A stretch of 43,535 bases of DNA from Flavobacteriales bacterium (GCA_023264155.1 JALQTD010000002.1:1-43535); one strand, 5' to 3'. Numbered from the stretch's first letter, positions 27,513 through 34,997 are shown. Translations and numbers: made by a program. The notes: a model not told the origin generated them from the sequence alone.

Positions 27513-27910
27513 GGGGCCGATTTTGGATTTGACAGCGAGATGATCATTCTCGTAAGCATGCCGAGCACTTGTAAGCACAGCTCGTTAATCTTGAACTTTC
27601 AAGTCAGAAATGACAACACTTCCTACGCGCTCGCGGCCTAATCGACTCAGTCGATTCGCCTAATCCCGTTACCAGGTAACGCGACGAGCTGCTCCAGGTT
27701 TGGCGTACGGACCCTTTCGCCAAATCAATGGGGTATCGGATAAATGGGACTAGCAAAGGACGGGTTCGACGTCCGGAGCGAAGCTTACTGAACTAAGCCG
27801 TTGGTGGGGTGTCCTTGCTCAGCCACCGGTCGACAACGAATTGAGGAATAAGCATGTAGAAAGCGCGGGTGTTCCTCGTTTGGACGGGGGTTCGACTCCC
27901 CCCGGCTCCA
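27513..27910 (+). ncRNA. ssrA: Transfer-messenger RNA
   Basis: The 5' end GGGGCCGATTTTGGATTTGA and the 3' end CGGCTCCA pair as a seven-base acceptor stem. The T arm is GGGGG-TTCGACT-CCCCC. The tag frame starts after AAGTC with AGA at 27606 and reads RNDNTSYALAA before TAA at 27639, ending with the YALAA degradation signal as in other bacteria. The AGA resume codon is inferred from alignment with the E. coli layout. CCA is not encoded; the DNA after A73 reads CAA. tmRNA rescues stalled ribosomes and tags the product for proteolysis. The 3' end of this gene is a known integration site for mobile elements. Confidence 0.95.
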
Positions 27911-27954
27911 CAAGTAAAGTGGACTTTTACATCCTGGACGAATTTGTAAACCCT

Positions 27955-28003
27955 ACTTGACCACATCGGGGTTAAGGGTGGTCGGCTTCTGTCTGCTGGC
28001 TCC
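27955..28003 (+). repeat. Direct repeat, left copy
   Basis: Aligned with 30711-30760 this 49-base stretch matches in 45 of 50 columns, including one gap. It begins ACTTGACCACATCGGGGTTA and ends CTGCTGGCTCC. It lies 44 bases after the tmRNA and contains the inverted repeat GACCAC...GTGGTC. Nothing in it codes for protein. Confidence 0.85.
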
Positions 28004-28110
28004 GCGAAACTCATCAAATGGTGGATTTGAGTTTGTATGCCACAAAGCTCTCGCCTCGTTTTCAGGGAAATAGATACAAATCAGGGCAATGCCAACCCAT
28101 TTCGCAGGAT

Positions 28111-28779
28111 TCAGCCCTTCGCCACCGAATGGCGGCGCATGTCTTCGTTCTCCCAGATTTCTTGACGCATCGGCTGGAGTGCCACTTCCACCATGACTTT
28201 GGCCAAGACGTCGGAGGGGATGGAGAATTTGGTGTGCCTCCGAATCAGCGGATAGATCCACCGGGAAATGACGTACCCCAGGTTGGGCTCCTTTCTGGGG
28301 ACCACGGGGTAGATGTAACCCGGCCGAAACGTGGCAAACCCACCGAGTCCCAATGCGGCAAGCTGGTTTTCAGCAGCGCCCTTGTCCCGCGCGAATTGCA
28401 CGCGGCTTTTTTCGCTGCGATCGGCGCCTTGTCCACTCAACAGGGCATAGCGCGCATCAGGCGATTGCCTCTGAAGAGCCCGCGCCATGGTCAACGGGAG
28501 GTCCACGTTGATGCGCCGGAAGGCGGTACTGTCGAGGGCTCCCGTGTACGCACCCACGCAGAACAGGCAGGCTGTGACACCTTGGAAGCAGGCCTCGTCG
28601 TCCAGCTTCACGAGGTCAGCGGCCACCCATTGCCGAAGTTTGGGATGTTCTTGGGCCAGCTTGCGGCGACCGAGCGTCCGAACCTCCTTGACTTGAGGAT
28701 GCGCCAAGGCATGCTCCAAGGCATGGCCGCCCACCATCCCGGTGGCGCCCAAAATCAGGACCGTGTCGCCGTGGCTCAC
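28111..28779 (-). CDS. Atypical short-chain dehydrogenase, NAD(P)H-binding
   Basis: A 222-residue cytoplasmic protein with an N-terminal Rossmann fold VLILGATGMVGGHALEHAL. The TLGRRKL segment after the second strand, ACLFCVGAYTGA and YALLSGQGADRSEKSRVQFA follow. The plan resembles HTATIP2/TDA10-type atypical SDRs, where the YxxxK pair is replaced. Its GTG at 28779 overlaps the stop of the SDR gene as GTGA. A longer frame up to 28989 would run through the SDR gene and is not used. It may reduce or sense a nucleotide-linked substrate; the function is unknown. It is last in the AraC operon. Confidence 0.83.
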   Translation of the reverse strand: MSHGDTVLILGATGMVGGHALEHALAHPQVKEVRTLGRRKLAQEHPKLRQWVAADLVKLDDEACFQGVTACLFCVGAYTGALDSTAFRRINVDLPLTMARALQRQSPDARYALLSGQGADRSEKSRVQFARDKGAAENQLAALGLGGFATFRPGYIYPVVPRKEPNLGYVISRWIYPLIRRHTKFSIPSDVLAKVMVEVALQPMRQEIWENEDMRRHSVAKG

Positions 28780-29738
28780 GACAGCCCCACGAGTTCGCGA
28801 CTCTTCGCCACCAGTGCCTTCGCGGCCTTCAAATCCCGCGCGTGTGGGTTGGGGGATTCCATGGGCCAGCCTCCTTTGCGACATTCCTTGTCTTGGTACA
28901 GAAAGCTGTACTGGCTGAAGTAGGCACCTGAGTGGTTTCGCGCATCCTCGGACAGCAGGACGTGCATGGAGGTTTGGGCTGATTCCCAACTGCTGTCAGA
29001 CACGAAGGGGAGGATGGGCTTCATGAGGAACATGGCTGCGCGCATCCAGGCCGGACCACCTTTTCCAAAATTGGATCGTGCCCATCCAGGGTGAATGGAG
29101 GCGGTGGTGACATTCGAGCCCTGCAGTCGGTCGGCCAACTCAAGCGCGTACAGCGTGGTGGCCACTTTGGCCTCGCCGTAGGCGCCAAAGTTGCTGTAGT
29201 CGCGACGCTCGAAGTTCAAATCGTCCAAATGGACTTGGTAGCGGTTCTTGGGGCTGCCCGCATGGACGACAGAAGAGAGGATGCCGTAGCGGCCGTCAGG
29301 TGATTTTTTCAAGGCATCAAGCAACAATTCCGTAAGCAAGAAATGCCCGAAGTAGCTGATTCCGATGGTCAATTCAAACCCGTCTTTGGTGAAGGCGGGC
29401 TTGCTGTCCATGTTCACCATGCCGGCATTGCACATCAAGCCGTCGATGACCTCGTACTTGGCGTGGAAGGCCTCGGCGAATGCGCGCACGGAATCCAAAT
29501 CGGCGAGGTCGCAGCGGAGAATGTCCACGGTGCCTGCCAACCCTACAAATTCCTTGGCGACTTCTGCGGCAGCGTCGGGACGACGGCATGCCATGATGAC
29601 GTGTCCGCCTTGCTTGACCAGTTGCCGGGTCGTTTCCAGTCCCACGCCAGAGTTGGCGCCGGTCACGACGTAGGCTTTGCCAGACAGATCTTTCTCGAGG
29701 AGTGCCTTGTCGCACCAAATCAAATTCTTGTTTGCCAT
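28776..29738 (-). CDS. Short-chain dehydrogenase/reductase
   Basis: A 320-residue classical SDR of the retinol-dehydrogenase/protochlorophyllide-reductase-like size. The cofactor motif is TGANSGVG (26-33), NAG is at 104-106, a Ser pair at 155-156, and the catalytic YGEAK at 187-191. The C-terminal part is long, as in oxidoreductases acting on hydrophobic alcohols or aldehydes (GPAWMRAAMFLMKPILPFVS). The ATG follows the AraC stop by one base, and its stop overlaps the next gene. The substrate is unknown; neighbouring desaturases suggest a lipid-related one, which is an inference. Confidence 0.9.
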   Translation of the reverse strand: MANKNLIWCDKALLEKDLSGKAYVVTGANSGVGLETTRQLVKQGGHVIMACRRPDAAAEVAKEFVGLAGTVDILRCDLADLDSVRAFAEAFHAKYEVIDGLMCNAGMVNMDSKPAFTKDGFELTIGISYFGHFLLTELLLDALKKSPDGRYGILSSVVHAGSPKNRYQVHLDDLNFERRDYSNFGAYGEAKVATTLYALELADRLQGSNVTTASIHPGWARSNFGKGGPAWMRAAMFLMKPILPFVSDSSWESAQTSMHVLLSEDARNHSGAYFSQYSFLYQDKECRKGGWPMESPNPHARDLKAAKALVAKSRELVGLS

Positions 29739-29739
29739 A

Positions 29740-30657
29740 TCAATTGAGGTTAGAACGGAAAGTTTTGGGCGTCATGCCGGTGTGTTTCTTGAATAATCGT
29801 GTAAAGCTCTGGGGCTGCTCAAAGCCTAGCCCAAATGCAATCTCCCCAATGCTCTCCTCGGAGCTCGCCAAGGCGTGTTTGGCCCTATCCACCAAGGTTT
29901 GATGGATGTGTCCCTGTGCACTAAGACCTGTCTCCTTGCGGAGCAAATCACTTAAGTAGTTGGGAGACATGCACAGCTCTTGGGCGATCCAGTCCACGCG
30001 AGGAAGTCCCTCCAAAAGCGCGCGGCCAGAAGCGAGGTACGCGCCCAAAGCCGTGTTGAATCGGTCTAGGGTCCCTGAATGCATGGCGGACCGCTGGAAG
30101 AACTGGCGGTCGTAAAAACGCATGCATTGGTTGAGCAAGAGCTCCAAGTTGTTCAAAATGAGCTTGTGGCTGTGGGCATCGAGTTTTTGGGAATACTCGG
30201 CTTCGATGTGCTTACCGATGTCCAGGGCTTGGGCTTGCTCTATGGTCGAAAGGTGCAAGGCTTCCGTGACGTCGTAGCCGAAGTAGGTGTATTCGTCCAT
30301 TCGCCTTCCCAAATCCGTCCCCGCCAACAAGTCAGGGTGGAAGAGGAGCATCCAAGAAGCGGAGTCTTTTGCATGTCGCTTTCCTTCAAACCTCAATTCT
30401 TGTCCTGGCGCTGTGAAGATGAGTGTGCCATTTTCATAGTCGTATTGGCTGCGTCCATAGCCGATGGAGCCTTCTACACCCTCCTTGTACATGACCGTGT
30501 AGAGGGACAATTTCATCGCGATGTCCATGGCGTGGTCCATCGACACCTGCGGCAACTCCCTAAGCACGTACATGCCAATCAGGGGGTGCGCCGGTTCCGA
30601 CAGTCCTGTCAGGGCATGCAATTCGCTGAGTGTGGAGATGTTGACCACGGGGTTCAT
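29740..30657 (-). CDS. AraC-family transcriptional regulator
   Basis: A 305-residue regulator. Residues about 1-200 form the sensor half, with a cupin-like start (LTGLSEPAHPLIGMYVLREL). The two-HTH AraC domain lies at about 210-305 (VDWIAQELCMSPNYLSDLLR; then IGEIAFGLGFEQPQSFTRLF, KHTGMTPKTFR). It should activate genes by binding direct-repeat half-sites. A TAGATTTG element ends four bases before its ATG, and two 13-base copies 21 bases apart lie just behind it. It is the first gene of the operon with the SDR pair, so it probably controls itself. Confidence 0.92.
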   Translation of the reverse strand: MNPVVNISTLSELHALTGLSEPAHPLIGMYVLRELPQVSMDHAMDIAMKLSLYTVMYKEGVEGSIGYGRSQYDYENGTLIFTAPGQELRFEGKRHAKDSASWMLLFHPDLLAGTDLGRRMDEYTYFGYDVTEALHLSTIEQAQALDIGKHIEAEYSQKLDAHSHKLILNNLELLLNQCMRFYDRQFFQRSAMHSGTLDRFNTALGAYLASGRALLEGLPRVDWIAQELCMSPNYLSDLLRKETGLSAQGHIHQTLVDRAKHALASSEESIGEIAFGLGFEQPQSFTRLFKKHTGMTPKTFRSNLN

Positions 30658-30661
30658 GATG

Positions 30662-30669
30662 CAAATCTA
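30662..30669 (-). promoter_or_regulatory. -7 element of the araC-SDR operon
   Basis: TAGATTTG on the minus strand, a full consensus match, four bases before the ATG at 30657. The mRNA would start at or next to the start codon. Confidence 0.6.
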
Positions 30670-30688
30670 CCTGCACTCCATGCTGATG

Positions 30689-30722
30689 CACTTCACCAAA
30701 TCCCCGAATCACTTCACCAAAT
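30689..30722 (-). promoter_or_regulatory. Tandem 21-bp repeats, likely AraC operator
   Basis: CACTTCACCAAAT occurs at 30689-30701 and again at 30710-30722, 21 bases apart, or two helical turns. A relative, CACTTGATCAAAT, lies at 30802-30814, and another, TACTTGACCACAT, at 27954-27966. The tandem pair covers the -33 region of the araC operon promoter. Spacing and position are those of class II AraC-type activator sites. The second unit also lies inside the 50-bp direct repeat. Confidence 0.55.
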
Positions 30723-30760
30723 CGGGGTTGAGGGTGTTCGGCTTCTGTCCTGCTGGCTCC
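30711..30760 (+). repeat. Direct repeat, right copy
   Basis: The partner of 27955-28003. It continues after GGCTCC as ACCATGAAGTGGGTTTTCAC, which resembles the tmRNA end and its flank (27904-27930) in 21 of 27 columns. Confidence 0.85.
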
Positions 30761-30766
30761 ACCATG

Positions 30767-30807
30767 AAGTGGGTTTTCACCTGCGCGGAGACGTGTTTTC
30801 CCACTTG
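30767..30807. other. Inverted repeat in the divergent intergenic region
   Basis: AAGTGGG and CCCACTT, seven bases each, face each other across 27 bases; TTTTCAC and GTGTTTT flank them inside. The 270-base region 30658-30926 holds this, the operator-like repeats and the right direct repeat, and no protein gene. No T run follows on either strand, so it is not an obvious terminator. Confidence 0.4.
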
Positions 30808-30926
30808 ATCAAATCCCCGCATTTCTAGGTGCTGGCTTCAGCGCGCTGAGTGCTGTTGGATGGTCACTAGGCTAAGGATTCCAGTGGGTTACAGGGGAGT
30901 TCCTGGATTTTTTCGAACTTAGATGA

Positions 30927-31511
30927 ATGATTCATGCCTTGCAATCCGACCAAATTGAGCGCGCCCGTGAGATTTTGGTTGGGGCGCTGAAAGATTCGTT
31001 GGGGGTTCATTGGGTGCTTCGCAACAAGAGCGAGGAGGGAAAAGTGATGGCGTTGGAGGTGCTGTTTTTTGAAGGGGCCGACAGGGAAGGGGTCTACCTC
31101 TCTGATGATGGAAATGGAGCGGTGGTGTTTTATGACATCAATGACCCGAGGTGGAGTTGGTCCAATGCACGCCGGAAGGCTCAGTTGGTAATGCGTTACA
31201 CAGGGCTTCGAAGCGTTTGGCGATTGTTGAAATACAGGAAGATGATCTCGTCCACGAGGCCTCAAGAAGCCCTGGTTGGATTCCTGGTTGGCACCGATCG
31301 CCTTGCGCGTGGATCCAAGGCCATCTTCGACATCCATGAGGGCATGCAGCAGTTGGCCAAATCGCGCAACCTGCCCATTTGCCTCGAAACCACACAGCCC
31401 CGGGTCCGGCGCCTTTACCAATATGCAGGCTATGAGGAATATGCTGTGAAAAGGCACCCTTATGTTGAACTGAACATCTACTTCTTCATCAAGCATCCCG
31501 AAGATGGCTGA
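30927..31511 (+). CDS. GNAT-fold acyltransferase-like protein
   Basis: A 194-residue cytoplasmic protein resembling GNAT enzymes of Bacteroidota that lie near lipid genes. The N-terminal part (LGVHWVLRNKSEEGKVMALEVLFFE) and the core strand ALVGFLVGTDRLARGSKA occupy the acetyl-CoA-binding position, where the usual Q/RxxGxG/A loop is changed to LARGSKA. The end strand ICLETTQPRVRRLYQYAGYE is typical of GNAT. Substrate and acyl donor are unknown. The stop overlaps the desaturase ATG by eight bases. By eye the sequence is richer in A and T than the housekeeping genes around the window. Confidence 0.75.
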   Translation: MIHALQSDQIERAREILVGALKDSLGVHWVLRNKSEEGKVMALEVLFFEGADREGVYLSDDGNGAVVFYDINDPRWSWSNARRKAQLVMRYTGLRSVWRLLKYRKMISSTRPQEALVGFLVGTDRLARGSKAIFDIHEGMQQLAKSRNLPICLETTQPRVRRLYQYAGYEEYAVKRHPYVELNIYFFIKHPEDG

Positions 31512-32610
31512 ATCCTTCACCCGCATCACATTTCCGCCTGAAAAGGACAACTTCTACGCCGAATTGCGGGAAGAAGTTTCCCGGTATTTCAAAGAATCAG
31601 GCTTCACTCCTTATGGCAACCGGGCAATGCACATCAAAGCAGCGGCCATGTTGCTGGTCTACTTCGGCTTGTATGCCAGCATGTTGCTCACGGCCTCGGC
31701 ATTTCATGAACTGCTCGTTTGGTATGCGCTGATTGGAGTGTGGGGGGTGTTCTTGGGTTTGAACGTGGGGCACGACGCCGCTCATTTTGCCCTGTTCAAA
31801 TCACGTCGATGGAACAAAGTATGCTTGCTTGTCTTCGATTTGCTTGGAACCAACTCATTCAATTGGAAGAACCGTCACGTTGGGGCCCACCACCTGTTTC
31901 CAAACATCATGGATTACGATTCCGACATACAACAGTCCGAGGTGGTGAAGATTTTCCCCAAGGACAAGCACCGGGTCATGCACAAAGTTCAGTGGGCCTA
32001 CATGCCTTTCGTGTACATGATTTACATCTTTCGCTGGGTCGTATACCGGGACTTCAAGGACATTTTTACACGGAGAATCGGAGGGTTCGACAACAGCAAT
32101 TATCCCGCCAAGGAAATTGTAAAAATGGTCCTCTTCAAATTCGGCTACTTTGGCTACATCGTGGTGGTGCCCAAAATGATCCTGGGCTTTTCATGGGGCC
32201 AGGTATTCGGGGCGTTCTTCCTCCTTACGGTCTTCGCAAGCCTGACCATTACCATGGTCCTGCTCTCCACGCACGTTGGTGAGCATGCCAATTTTCCCGA
32301 GCCCAATGCCGATGGGGTGATGCCTCACGCTTGGTCACGCCATCACATGATGACCGCCGGCGATTTTGCAACGGACAGCATGCTTGTGACCCATTTGTTT
32401 GGAGGGTTCAATCATCACGTCATCCATCACCTATTCCAACATATTTGCCACATCCATTACCCAGAACTGACAAAAATCCTGATCCGTGTTGCCTCATTGC
32501 ATGGGGTGGAATACCGTTCAGAGAAACACATGTTCTCTGCCATGTATTCCCATTTCAAGCTGTTGTACAACAACGGAAACAATGCAAATCCAGTACCGTT
32601 CGAGTCATGA
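31504..32610 (+). CDS. Membrane fatty-acid desaturase
   Basis: A 368-residue integral membrane di-iron desaturase. The three His boxes are HDAAH (about 89-93), HVGAHH (124-129) and HHVIHH (303-308). Membrane helices surround them (AAAMLLVYFGLYASMLLTAS; YALIGVWGVFLGLNV; VFGAFFLLTVFASLTITMVL). The plan fits the front-end/acyl-lipid desaturases (linoleoyl-CoA-like), but without a fused cytochrome b5. It introduces a double bond in an acyl chain; the position is not predictable. It overlaps GNAT by eight bases and the next desaturase by ATGA. Confidence 0.93.
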   Translation: MAESFTRITFPPEKDNFYAELREEVSRYFKESGFTPYGNRAMHIKAAAMLLVYFGLYASMLLTASAFHELLVWYALIGVWGVFLGLNVGHDAAHFALFKSRRWNKVCLLVFDLLGTNSFNWKNRHVGAHHLFPNIMDYDSDIQQSEVVKIFPKDKHRVMHKVQWAYMPFVYMIYIFRWVVYRDFKDIFTRRIGGFDNSNYPAKEIVKMVLFKFGYFGYIVVVPKMILGFSWGQVFGAFFLLTVFASLTITMVLLSTHVGEHANFPEPNADGVMPHAWSRHHMMTAGDFATDSMLVTHLFGGFNHHVIHHLFQHICHIHYPELTKILIRVASLHGVEYRSEKHMFSAMYSHFKLLYNNGNNANPVPFES

Positions 32611-33584
32611 GGCATGTTCCATCAGATTTGCTGCTGAAGACGGTTCCTTTTGCCAAGGAGCACGTCGCAACGAGCTGGCGGCACACCCTCGTAGCCTGGT
32701 TGTTGCTTATGGCGAGCATCACGGGCGTGGTGATGTTGCCGGCTTGGTGGATGAAGGTCATGTGCAGCGCAGGTGTAGCTGTATTGATGTCCCGCACATT
32801 CGTGATTTACCACGACTACGTGCACGGCGCCATCCTCAAGTCGAGCCGTTTGGCCAAGGTGTTGTTCGCGGTGTATGGCGTGTTTTGTTTGGCACCAATG
32901 ACGGTCTGGAAACGAACCCACGATTACCACCACCGCTACAATGGGAGGCTTTCCAAACCCAGCATTGGGACCTACCCAGTGTTCACAAAAAAGAGGTTTG
33001 AACGCGCATCCATGTCGGAGCGGAAGAGCTACCTGTTCGCTCGGCACCCCATCGTCATAGCAATGGGATATTGGTTCACTTTTCTACATGGGATGTGCAT
33101 TCAACCAGGTCTTGCGAGTCCCATGAAGCACTGGGATTCCTGCCTAGCAGTGGGGGGTCATGCGATGTACCTCGCGGGCATGTACATGGTCGCAGGGTGG
33201 GAGGTGACGATGCTTGCCATCGTGCTGCCCAACACGGCGGCTTTTGGGTTTGGAGCCTACCTGTTTTATGTACAGCACAACTTTCCTTCAGCCGTTTACG
33301 CCTGCGATGGAGAGTGGGCATACGAATCATCGGCGCTTCAATCCTCGAGCTTCTTGGACTTGAGTCCCTTTATGCACTGGGTTACGGCAAACATTGGCTA
33401 CCACCACATCCATCACCTCAATGCACGCATTCCCTTTTACAGGTTACCGGAGGCCCAAGCAGCGATCCCTGAATTGCAACAACCGCTGCGGACGAATTTG
33501 AAGTTGAAGGAGGTACGAAGGTGTTTTGCGCTGAAGCTTTGGGATGAGCAAAAAGGGCGCATGATTTCCTTAGCAGAAGGATAG
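32607..33584 (+). CDS. Second membrane fatty-acid desaturase
   Basis: A 325-residue di-iron desaturase distinct from its neighbour. The His boxes are HDYVH (about 68-72), HDYHH (104-108, in RTHDYHHRYNGR) and HHIHH (265-269, in GYHHIHHLNARIPFY), as in omega-type acyl-lipid desaturases. Membrane helices lie at about 28-60 and 155-220. The ATG at 32607 overlaps the preceding stop as ATGA; the longer frame from 32331 runs through the first desaturase gene and is not used. Two unlike desaturases in one operon suggest sequential double bonds in one lipid. Confidence 0.92.
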   Translation: MRHVPSDLLLKTVPFAKEHVATSWRHTLVAWLLLMASITGVVMLPAWWMKVMCSAGVAVLMSRTFVIYHDYVHGAILKSSRLAKVLFAVYGVFCLAPMTVWKRTHDYHHRYNGRLSKPSIGTYPVFTKKRFERASMSERKSYLFARHPIVIAMGYWFTFLHGMCIQPGLASPMKHWDSCLAVGGHAMYLAGMYMVAGWEVTMLAIVLPNTAAFGFGAYLFYVQHNFPSAVYACDGEWAYESSALQSSSFLDLSPFMHWVTANIGYHHIHHLNARIPFYRLPEAQAAIPELQQPLRTNLKLKEVRRCFALKLWDEQKGRMISLAEG

Positions 33585-33691: not shown

Positions 33692-33699
33692 TAACTTGC
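33692..33699 (+). promoter_or_regulatory. -7 element of the T9SS cargo operon
   Basis: TAACTTGC, about 14 bases before the ATG at 33714. The stretch 33618-33691 shows no other feature. Confidence 0.3.
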
Positions 33700-33713
33700 G
33701 CAGAACTGCAAGA

Positions 33714-34997
33714 ATGATGAATCAATTTTTCCGCCTCCTGACCTCTTTAGGTGCGTTGTTACCAATTTGCCTGACCGCCCAAACCACCTTGCCGATCGAC
33801 TTCGAGTCCGGTACGGTGGCAGCGGACTTCACCGATTTTGACGGGGCCACGGCAGACGTAGTTGCGAATCCGTACCCCGATGCCCTGAACGAAAGCCCAA
33901 CCGTGGGGCGCATCGTTCGGGAAGGAGGCCAAATCTGGGCGGGGTCCTACCTCGCGCTCGACGCCCCATTCGACTTTTCGGAGGAAAACGCCATCCGCAT
34001 GAAAATCTGGTCCCCCCGTTCGGGCGTCCGGATGAAGGTCAAACTCGAAAATGCAGAAGGACTCAGCACCGAAGTCGACCAATGGAACGTGACGAGCGGG
34101 GGATGGGAAACCATGACTTGGGATTTCGCCTTGGCCTTGCCCATGACGTTCGATCGCTTGCTGTTCATGTTCGACTTCGAAACCATCGGCGACGGCACCG
34201 ACGACTCCACGTTCTATTTCGATGACATCGAGCAAGTCGACCCCAGCGCCGGCCTCGCCCAAATCGACCTCCCCGTGACCTTCGAGGAGGAAGGCGTATT
34301 CTACGCAACCATGGACTTTTGGGGCAATGCATCGGAAGTGGTAGCAGACCCCGAGAACCCCGCGAACCAAGTCGTGCAGGTCACGAAAATGGAAACGGCG
34401 ATGACGTGGGCGGGCACCATCATCGGCACCCTCGAGGGATTCGCCACCCCGATTCCGTTTACAGAGACGGACCAAACCATCAGCATCCGCGTGCACACGC
34501 CCGCCGCCGGCACCCCCATCTTGCTCAAGGCCGAGATGTCGGGCAACCCGATCGCCACGGAAACCCTCCAGTTCTCGTCGCAAGCCGGCTGGGAGACCTT
34601 GCAATTCAACCTCGGCAACGAGATGCCCGGCACCGAGCCCCTGCAGGTCGGTTTCCCGTACGACTTGCTGGCCATCTTCTTCGGTTTCGGCGAGCCCGGA
34701 GTGGAAGGAGGGACGACCTATTATTTCGACGATGTGTACTTCGGCCAACAACCAGCTGTCAGTGTTGAAGCGCCCACTGCTGCGAATTGGACGTGCTACC
34801 CAAACCCACTGCGTGCCGGACAAATGCTGCAGCTAGATGGCCTGAATGAGGGAGAGCACGTGGCCATTTGGGACGCGGCTGGCCGCGAAGTGTGGTCGGG
34901 CGCCTACCAGGCGGCGGGCCTCGATATGACCTTAAAGGCAGGCGCTTACTTCGTGGTGGCGAACGGGCGGCGCGCTGAACGGTTGCTGGTGCAGTGA
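33714..34997 (+). CDS. Secreted beta-sandwich protein with T9SS type A tail
   Basis: A 427-residue protein with a signal peptide (MNQFFRLLTSLGALLPICLTAQ). Two similar beta-sandwich domains follow at about 25-180 and 185-345; each begins with the pattern LP(I/V)(D/T)FE and ends with a (F/Y)YFDD(I/V) motif, as in carbohydrate-binding jelly-roll modules. The last 75 residues are a type A sorting domain (NWTCYPNPLRAGQMLQL, WDAAGREVW, LKAGAYFVVANG). It is probably exported by T9SS and binds glycans; no catalytic domain is present. Starts at 33714 and 33717 are equivalent. The stop overlaps the next gene's GTG as GTGA. Confidence 0.87.
   Translation: MMNQFFRLLTSLGALLPICLTAQTTLPIDFESGTVAADFTDFDGATADVVANPYPDALNESPTVGRIVREGGQIWAGSYLALDAPFDFSEENAIRMKIWSPRSGVRMKVKLENAEGLSTEVDQWNVTSGGWETMTWDFALALPMTFDRLLFMFDFETIGDGTDDSTFYFDDIEQVDPSAGLAQIDLPVTFEEEGVFYATMDFWGNASEVVADPENPANQVVQVTKMETAMTWAGTIIGTLEGFATPIPFTETDQTISIRVHTPAAGTPILLKAEMSGNPIATETLQFSSQAGWETLQFNLGNEMPGTEPLQVGFPYDLLAIFFGFGEPGVEGGTTYYFDDVYFGQQPAVSVEAPTAANWTCYPNPLRAGQMLQLDGLNEGEHVAIWDAAGREVWSGAYQAAGLDMTLKAGAYFVVANGRRAERLLVQ

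Follow-up and report, generated by a model that had tools for sequence, protein, structure and literature searches.

How do genes come to lie between two direct repeats immediately behind a tmRNA gene (ssrA), in a stretch of DNA that encodes no integrase? We addressed this question in a window of 43,535 nucleotides, the whole stretch analysed here, which is a complete contig of the draft genome of a Flavobacteriales bacterium (G000; 424 contigs, 87.6% complete). A sequence-only reading had proposed that 50-bp repeats enclose one cassette of three genes, which could have been moved in trans or could have arisen by duplication and recombination.

Two cassettes lie behind the tmRNA gene of the window

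Realignment of positions 27955-28003 and 30711-30760 gave 45 identities, 4 mismatches and one 1-nt gap over 50 columns, with GGCTCC at the end of both copies, exactly as had been read from the sequence; by BLAST, the left copy matches the right one with E = 3.5e-12. The distance of 44 nt between the tmRNA (ending at 27911/27913) and the left copy also held, three minus-strand ORFs (AraC, SDR and NAD(P)-binding) do lie between the copies, and the window contains no integrase, as claimed. The idea of a cassette stood as well, but there are two of them rather than one, and the ends of the 50-bp match are not the junctions. Because cassettes start directly after an 8-mer shared by the tmRNA and the repeat, we placed the functional boundaries at GGCTCCAC|27912 and GGCTCCAC|30763. 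The features of the region are as follows.

27513-27911/27913, plus strand: tmRNA (ssrA), by ARAGORN and Rfam
27904-27911, plus strand: tmRNA 3′ end GGCTCCAC, the attB-like insertion site, from the end of synteny with G001 and cassette starts in other genomes
27912-28005, plus strand: gene-free 94-nt mini-cassette ending in repeat copy L, also found between repeats in G101, G096 and G115
27955-28005, plus strand: repeat copy L, core ending GGCTCCGC, with a 1-nt deletion, by alignment
28006-30762, plus strand: 2,757-nt gene cassette ending in repeat copy R, its junction type matching the intervals of relatives
28111 to ~28872, minus strand: NAD(P)-binding protein, atypical SDR/epimerase-like (Pfam Epimerase and Semialdhyde_dh, matched on the longer ORF 28111-28989; start codon provisional)
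28776-29738, minus strand: short-chain dehydrogenase/reductase (SDR; Pfam adh_short, 2.5e-27)
29740-30657, minus strand: AraC-family regulator (Pfam HTH_18, 2.3e-22)
30711-30762, plus strand: repeat copy R, intact, with core GGCTCCAC at 30755-30762; right end of the cassette

Copy L has probably decayed. The spacing of the three genes makes their co-transcription plausible. When the genome of the window was searched with the 50-mer, two copies were found in all, both in the window.

The surroundings of copy R hold further traces. Copy R is flanked by two incomplete copies of the repeat's left portion, at 30689-30709 (CACTTCACCAAATCCCCG) and 30802-30822 (CACTTGATCAAATCCCCG), and an inverted repeat, AAGTGGG/CCCACTT, lies at ~30766-30808; these may be remnants of older junctions. 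Two tandem fatty-acid desaturase genes (31504-33584) begin ~750 bp past copy R and are never found 3′ of the tmRNA in the relatives examined, so the variable region of the window may extend further. A predicted secreted protein (33696-34997) is also located 3′ of the cassette in the window, while in genus g10 its homologue (L076, L187, L224 and L242) lies between an AlaDh/PNT-like gene and the tmRNA.

Cassettes begin at the base following a shared 8-mer

The same sequence, GG(C/G)TCCAC, terminates both the tmRNA and the repeat, and cassettes begin at the next base. Alignment of the window with G001, a genome of the same genus, stops at 27911, the last base of GGCTCCAC. Across the family, gene order is conserved upstream of the tmRNA and the 3′ side varies from genome to genome; a conserved order including both repeats, which would have spoken against insertion, was thus not what the relatives displayed. 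Two genomes, G123 and G100, present empty sites, with what appears to be the tmRNA's own terminator directly behind it.

To compare junctions, we clustered the 150 nt that follow each of 105 of them. Six clusters mix tmRNA and repeat junctions, meaning that the same cassette start occurs in different genomes behind either sequence, and the break falls at GG(C/G)TCCAC| in each. They unite the tmRNA of G104 with repeats of G101 and G022; that of the window (G000) with repeats of G101, G096 and G115; those of G123 and G100 with repeats of five genomes; that of G003 with one G101 repeat; that of G107 with repeats of G107, G106 and G115; and that of G109 with one G102 repeat. The G123/G100 sequence is an intrinsic terminator and is therefore probably the ancestral tmRNA flank. 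What is probably this terminator also lies behind repeats within arrays (for example at G107:C38:12250, G106:C33:3915 and G022:C60:899), sometimes twice per genome (G106).

Starting from the 8-mer, the tmRNA flank of G003 is 98.0% identical to a G101 array over 298 nt, and the tmRNA cassette of G104 is 97.7% identical to G101 over 693 nt, compared with 70-71% identity for a core recombinase gene in the same genome pairs (G003/G101 and G104/G101). A cassette-encoded Fic protein is shared by genera g3 and g10 at 92.8% identity. At the level of sequence, these junctions demonstrate site-specific insertion right behind the tmRNA, exchange between tmRNA and repeat sites, and recent cassette transfer between genera. 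Metagenome-assembled genomes (MAGs) supply most of the evidence, and as their small array contigs may be misbinned, transfer is safest on the tmRNA-bearing contigs (G000, G003, G104, G107 and G115).

Every junction leaves the tmRNA intact, and no acceptor stem is encoded by the repeat; hence no displaced 3′ fragment of the RNA gene is restored by the element, as tyrosine integrases would do at tDNA. Beyond the 8-mer, the repeat is weakly similar to the tmRNA 3′ end (p = 0.09 by local alignment, p = 0.0005 when end-anchored). That the repeat derives from the tmRNA 3′ end is suggested by the end-anchored comparison and not by the local one, and we did not adopt this origin. On the other side of the junction, about a third of the cassette starts (~30/87) read A(A/T)GTAAAGTGGAC or a close variant, a candidate for the right arm of the recombination site. 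This motif puts an inverted GTGGAC 7 nt past the core GTCCAC.

Repeat arrays are sporadic within one family

Among 40 relatives in a first DNA search, one stood out: G022, in which over 12 strong copies were concentrated on a few contigs. Using a sequence-only model built from 13 copies, we then found the repeat in 25 of the 114 genomes of the window's family, in five genera and with up to 15 copies per genome. When 399 genomes from across the order were sampled, 25 were positive, and every one of these belongs to the family. The repeat is absent from G001, although this genome shares the genus of the window, and its distribution is therefore sporadic. When 84,980 species were scanned for an exact 21-mer, matches came from Flavobacteriales/Bacteroidetes MAGs, several of which bear sample names of Caspian or Baltic type; the carriers live in marine and brackish water. 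Three matches beyond this group, one each in Actinomycetota, Burkholderiales and Rhizobiales MAGs, were dismissed as chance because their scores were low and the left half was missing. A viral or phage origin was likewise rejected: viral contigs gave one chance pattern match, and the serine integrases retrieved were only distant ones (≤32% identity among those listed).

In the relatives, the 50-mer marks many other cassettes. The repeats agree in strand in all 60 copies on the 19 contigs with at least two of them, while the intervening genes run in both directions. Six contigs carry both a tmRNA and repeats (in G000, G010, G104, G108, G115 and G129), and there the repeats are always 3′ of the tmRNA and on its strand. 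The arrays thus combine a uniform orientation and a conserved 3′ site, as integrons do, with tandem elements 3′ of ssrA within direct repeats, as in the ssrA islands of Dehalococcoides. The 36 intervals measured range from 94 to 5,149 nt (median ~1.7 kb), and many hold a single ORF. Their cargo includes a pentapeptide repeat protein, esterases, peptidase C26, Fic, Fib_succ_major surface proteins, LemA/TPM, amine oxidase, CobW, sulfotransferase, GNAT and AraC+SDR; no recombinase was recognised among the cassette cargo proteins scanned. One lone copy (L176, G107:C37, 11674-11743) is distant from the contig ends and has no obvious proximity to ssrA; it shares its right flank with G101:C52.

A large serine recombinase is found at the ssrA edge in relatives

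At the edge of ssrA, relatives G109 and G011 each encode a CcrB-group large serine recombinase. In G109, which carries the repeat, a 561-codon frame lies immediately 3′ of the tmRNA and reads antisense into it (...KSLW|VEPGGVEPPSKQ...); the G011 enzyme is a distant relative in the same arrangement. Since the recombinase reads antisense into the tmRNA in both, its element begins precisely at that boundary. Resolvase and Recombinase domains were identified in the G109 protein, whose best curated profile matches are XisF and SCC CcrB, CcrA and CcrC, the CcrB/A/C scores being below their cut-offs. Its relatives of solved structure are the A118 and TP901-1 integrases.

Among repeat carriers, G109-like enzymes were present in two genomes (G109 and G101), with a remnant in a third (G102). 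Contig G101:C36 encodes a recombinase 95% identical to that of G109, cut by the contig end, and a repeat in the expected orientation ~9.3 kb away, with ~9 kb of cargo in between. Apart from the G102 remnant, this is the only contig with both recombinase and repeat, and binning errors are possible in MAGs. On G102:C44, the cassette opens with the 37 C-terminal residues of the recombinase, right at the repeat junction. A circle of recombinase plus repeat, built in silico, keeps the frame open (...KKSLWVDPAGQKPNTLNPDLVK*), with its TAG at the left border of the repeat. Variation among repeat copies by codon position is highest in the third (68 vs 52 and 31); as one sense frame scores equally, the pattern is consistent with a coding origin of the repeat and supports it weakly. 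Serine recombinases were not found in the incomplete genome of the window (87.6% complete) or in most carriers. From three loci, we infer that the enzyme is likely a CcrB/XisF-like large serine recombinase.

A model for cassette accretion at ssrA

We consider it probable that the repeats are the sites of a cassette system whose primary site is the tmRNA 3′ end and whose enzyme is a large serine recombinase of the CcrB/XisF group. In our model, the tmRNA gene, present in a single copy, would offer its 3′ end as the primary insertion site, and a cassette would consist of variable DNA, often one gene, plus the ~50-nt repeat, whose 3′ terminus is GG(C/G)TCCAC. A circular cassette would recombine with GGCTCCAC of the tmRNA or with GG(C/G)TCCAC of a resident repeat and insert just 3′ of its target, leaving the tmRNA intact. 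As insertion would always occur just 3′ of the core, cassettes would pile up in the same orientation. The circular intermediate is postulated, and no excised circle was seen.

The enzyme would be an ssrA-specific recombinase carried by few elements. The repeat would represent the element-side half of attP, overlapping the native end of the recombinase gene; read antisense, it would continue the recombinase in frame (...KSLW|VDPAGQKPNTLNPDLVK*). Cargo-only cassettes, including those of the window, would then be deletion derivatives moved in trans. Counting against the model are the rarity of the recombinase among carriers and the variable cassette starts, which provide no conserved P′ arm, a requirement of textbook serine integrases. 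The junctions of relatives, the empty sites and the G001 break at 27911 nevertheless support the original proposal of a small cassette moved in trans, and plain duplication and recombination need not be invoked.

Other mechanisms were weighed against this model. Since ssrA is a classic integration site, the arrays could be accreted remnants of ordinary tyrosine-integrase islands, mobilizable in cis, that have lost their integrases. A 446-aa tyrosine integrase does lie ~180 bp 3′ of the tmRNA in G118, and several carriers have a second tyrosine-integrase family. Such islands, however, typically carry a longer duplicated segment of the tRNA or tmRNA 3′ end, whereas here the clear sharing is confined to the 8-mer, and the 364-aa integrase family sits at tRNA genes, outside the arrays, and is absent from the window's genome. 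We therefore regard this origin as unlikely. A more remote proposal is that the host XerC/XerD enzymes move the cassettes, as with plasmid dif modules. Enzymes of XerC/D size are indeed the tyrosine recombinases common to the carriers examined, but they are universal while the arrays are sporadic, and by eye the repeat has no 28-bp palindrome of XerC arm, 6 bp and XerD arm (11-6-11); this makes their involvement very improbable. The last and least credible proposal is a dispersed intergenic repeat, terminator- or REP-like, that brackets genes near the tmRNA by chance. Its copies are intergenic and some are followed by a terminator, yet it is refuted by a strand that is uniform whatever the strand of the genes, by the linkage to tmRNA, by the sharp junctions, and by the same cassettes occurring at the tmRNA and behind repeats.

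A true integron or CALIN, with the repeats as attC sites and an integron integrase acting in trans, would also account for arrays of small, often single-gene cassettes, each with a 3′ site and with no local integrase. Folding of the repeat core yields an imperfect hairpin that includes several G-U pairs and is more favourable on the top strand. Against this, GTTRRRY occurs within 8 nt of none of the 87 junctions, the primary site is the tmRNA, and the only tyrosine recombinases found in the incomplete genome of the window are XerD and a XerC-like protein, with integrase_gron scores of 144 and 102 (cut-off 265). We did not take the hairpin for an attC, given its reliance on G-U pairs and a junction that has no R box. 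The integron reading is thus largely refuted, and we give it very little weight.

Two kinds of tyrosine integrase recorded along the way deserve description. The G118 enzyme (L224, G118:C92, 5512-6852) marks a second kind of element at the tmRNA locus. The well-conserved ~360-aa family was found at tRNA genes in 14 of the 114 family genomes, for example at L225 (G107:C18), apparently within a tRNA-Ala gene, at L226 (G104:C70) and at L228 (G130:C1), and constitutes a separate island family. The conserved 364-aa family, present in some carriers, was discarded as the dedicated enzyme of the arrays, being located inside or beside tRNA genes and not tracking the arrays.

Comparison with known systems

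By enzyme and place, the closest described system is that of the Dehalococcoides ssrA islands. These are arranged in tandem 3′ of ssrA and bounded by direct repeats, and next to their left edge lies DsiB, a CcrB-like large serine recombinase; an integration module is missing from 15 of 31 islands, and the CcrB-like enzyme is proposed to stack them behind ssrA (PMC3146451). In Dehalococcoides, the repeat copies 20 bp of the ssrA 3′ end, and vcr islands measure ~12 kb (PMC3146451). Our arrays share the tandem position behind ssrA, the direct repeats and recombinase-free units, and a CcrB-like enzyme is present in the relatives G109 and G011. In contrast, their repeat is ~50 nt long, clearly has only the 8-mer in common with ssrA and is no ssrA copy, their intervals are 94-5,149 nt and often hold one gene, and they occur in Flavobacteriales rather than Chloroflexota.

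With integrons and CALINs, the arrays have in common small, promiscuous cassettes with a 3′ site each, a fixed primary site and an enzyme that would act in trans; they differ in the missing attC R box, in that no IntI was found, in the tmRNA as primary site and in an enzyme that is probably a serine recombinase. The profile scores place the serine recombinase in the same group as CcrA/B/C of SCC, which act at rlmH. SCC elements insert at the 3′ end of a conserved gene, form composite arrays and include recombinase-less pseudo-SCC; target gene, size and repeat are different here. As in cis-mobilizable elements (CIMEs), which form by accretion, recombinase-less DNA is enclosed by att sites and would be mobilised by a helper element, but known CIMEs are ICE-derived and few per site, unlike the up to 15 repeats per genome seen here. 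A literature search, with most subscription journals outside it, returned no description of this array.

The arrangement is probably a form of serine-recombinase accretion at ssrA with integron-like behaviour, differing from known islands. Integrons are the textbook bacterial system for stockpiling and shuffling single-gene cassettes. A bolder reading, towards which we remain somewhat sceptical, is that the arrays may constitute an independent integron-equivalent platform for gene capture, in which a large serine recombinase would use the tmRNA 3′ end as docking site and both tmRNA and repeats as targets. If so, many small recombinase-free cassettes would be stacked, shuffled and exchanged between genera through a serine instead of a tyrosine recombinase. 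The arrays of aquatic Flavobacteriales are a second, unrelated-looking arrangement with integron logic, whose cargo is metabolic, surface, regulatory and Fic-domain. They raise the question of whether a serine recombinase could, through a very short shared core and with no directionality factor, act in trans on many recombinase-less cassettes.

The exact junction (GG[C/G]TCCAC|) and the searchable 50-nt mark make cassette traffic traceable in metagenomes. The arrays may also account for the interruption of several assemblies at the tmRNA 3′ end or close to it: contigs stop exactly at this end in G022, G018 and G084, and within ~100 nt of it in G107 and G100, as expected where a repeated or variable flank would break the assembly.
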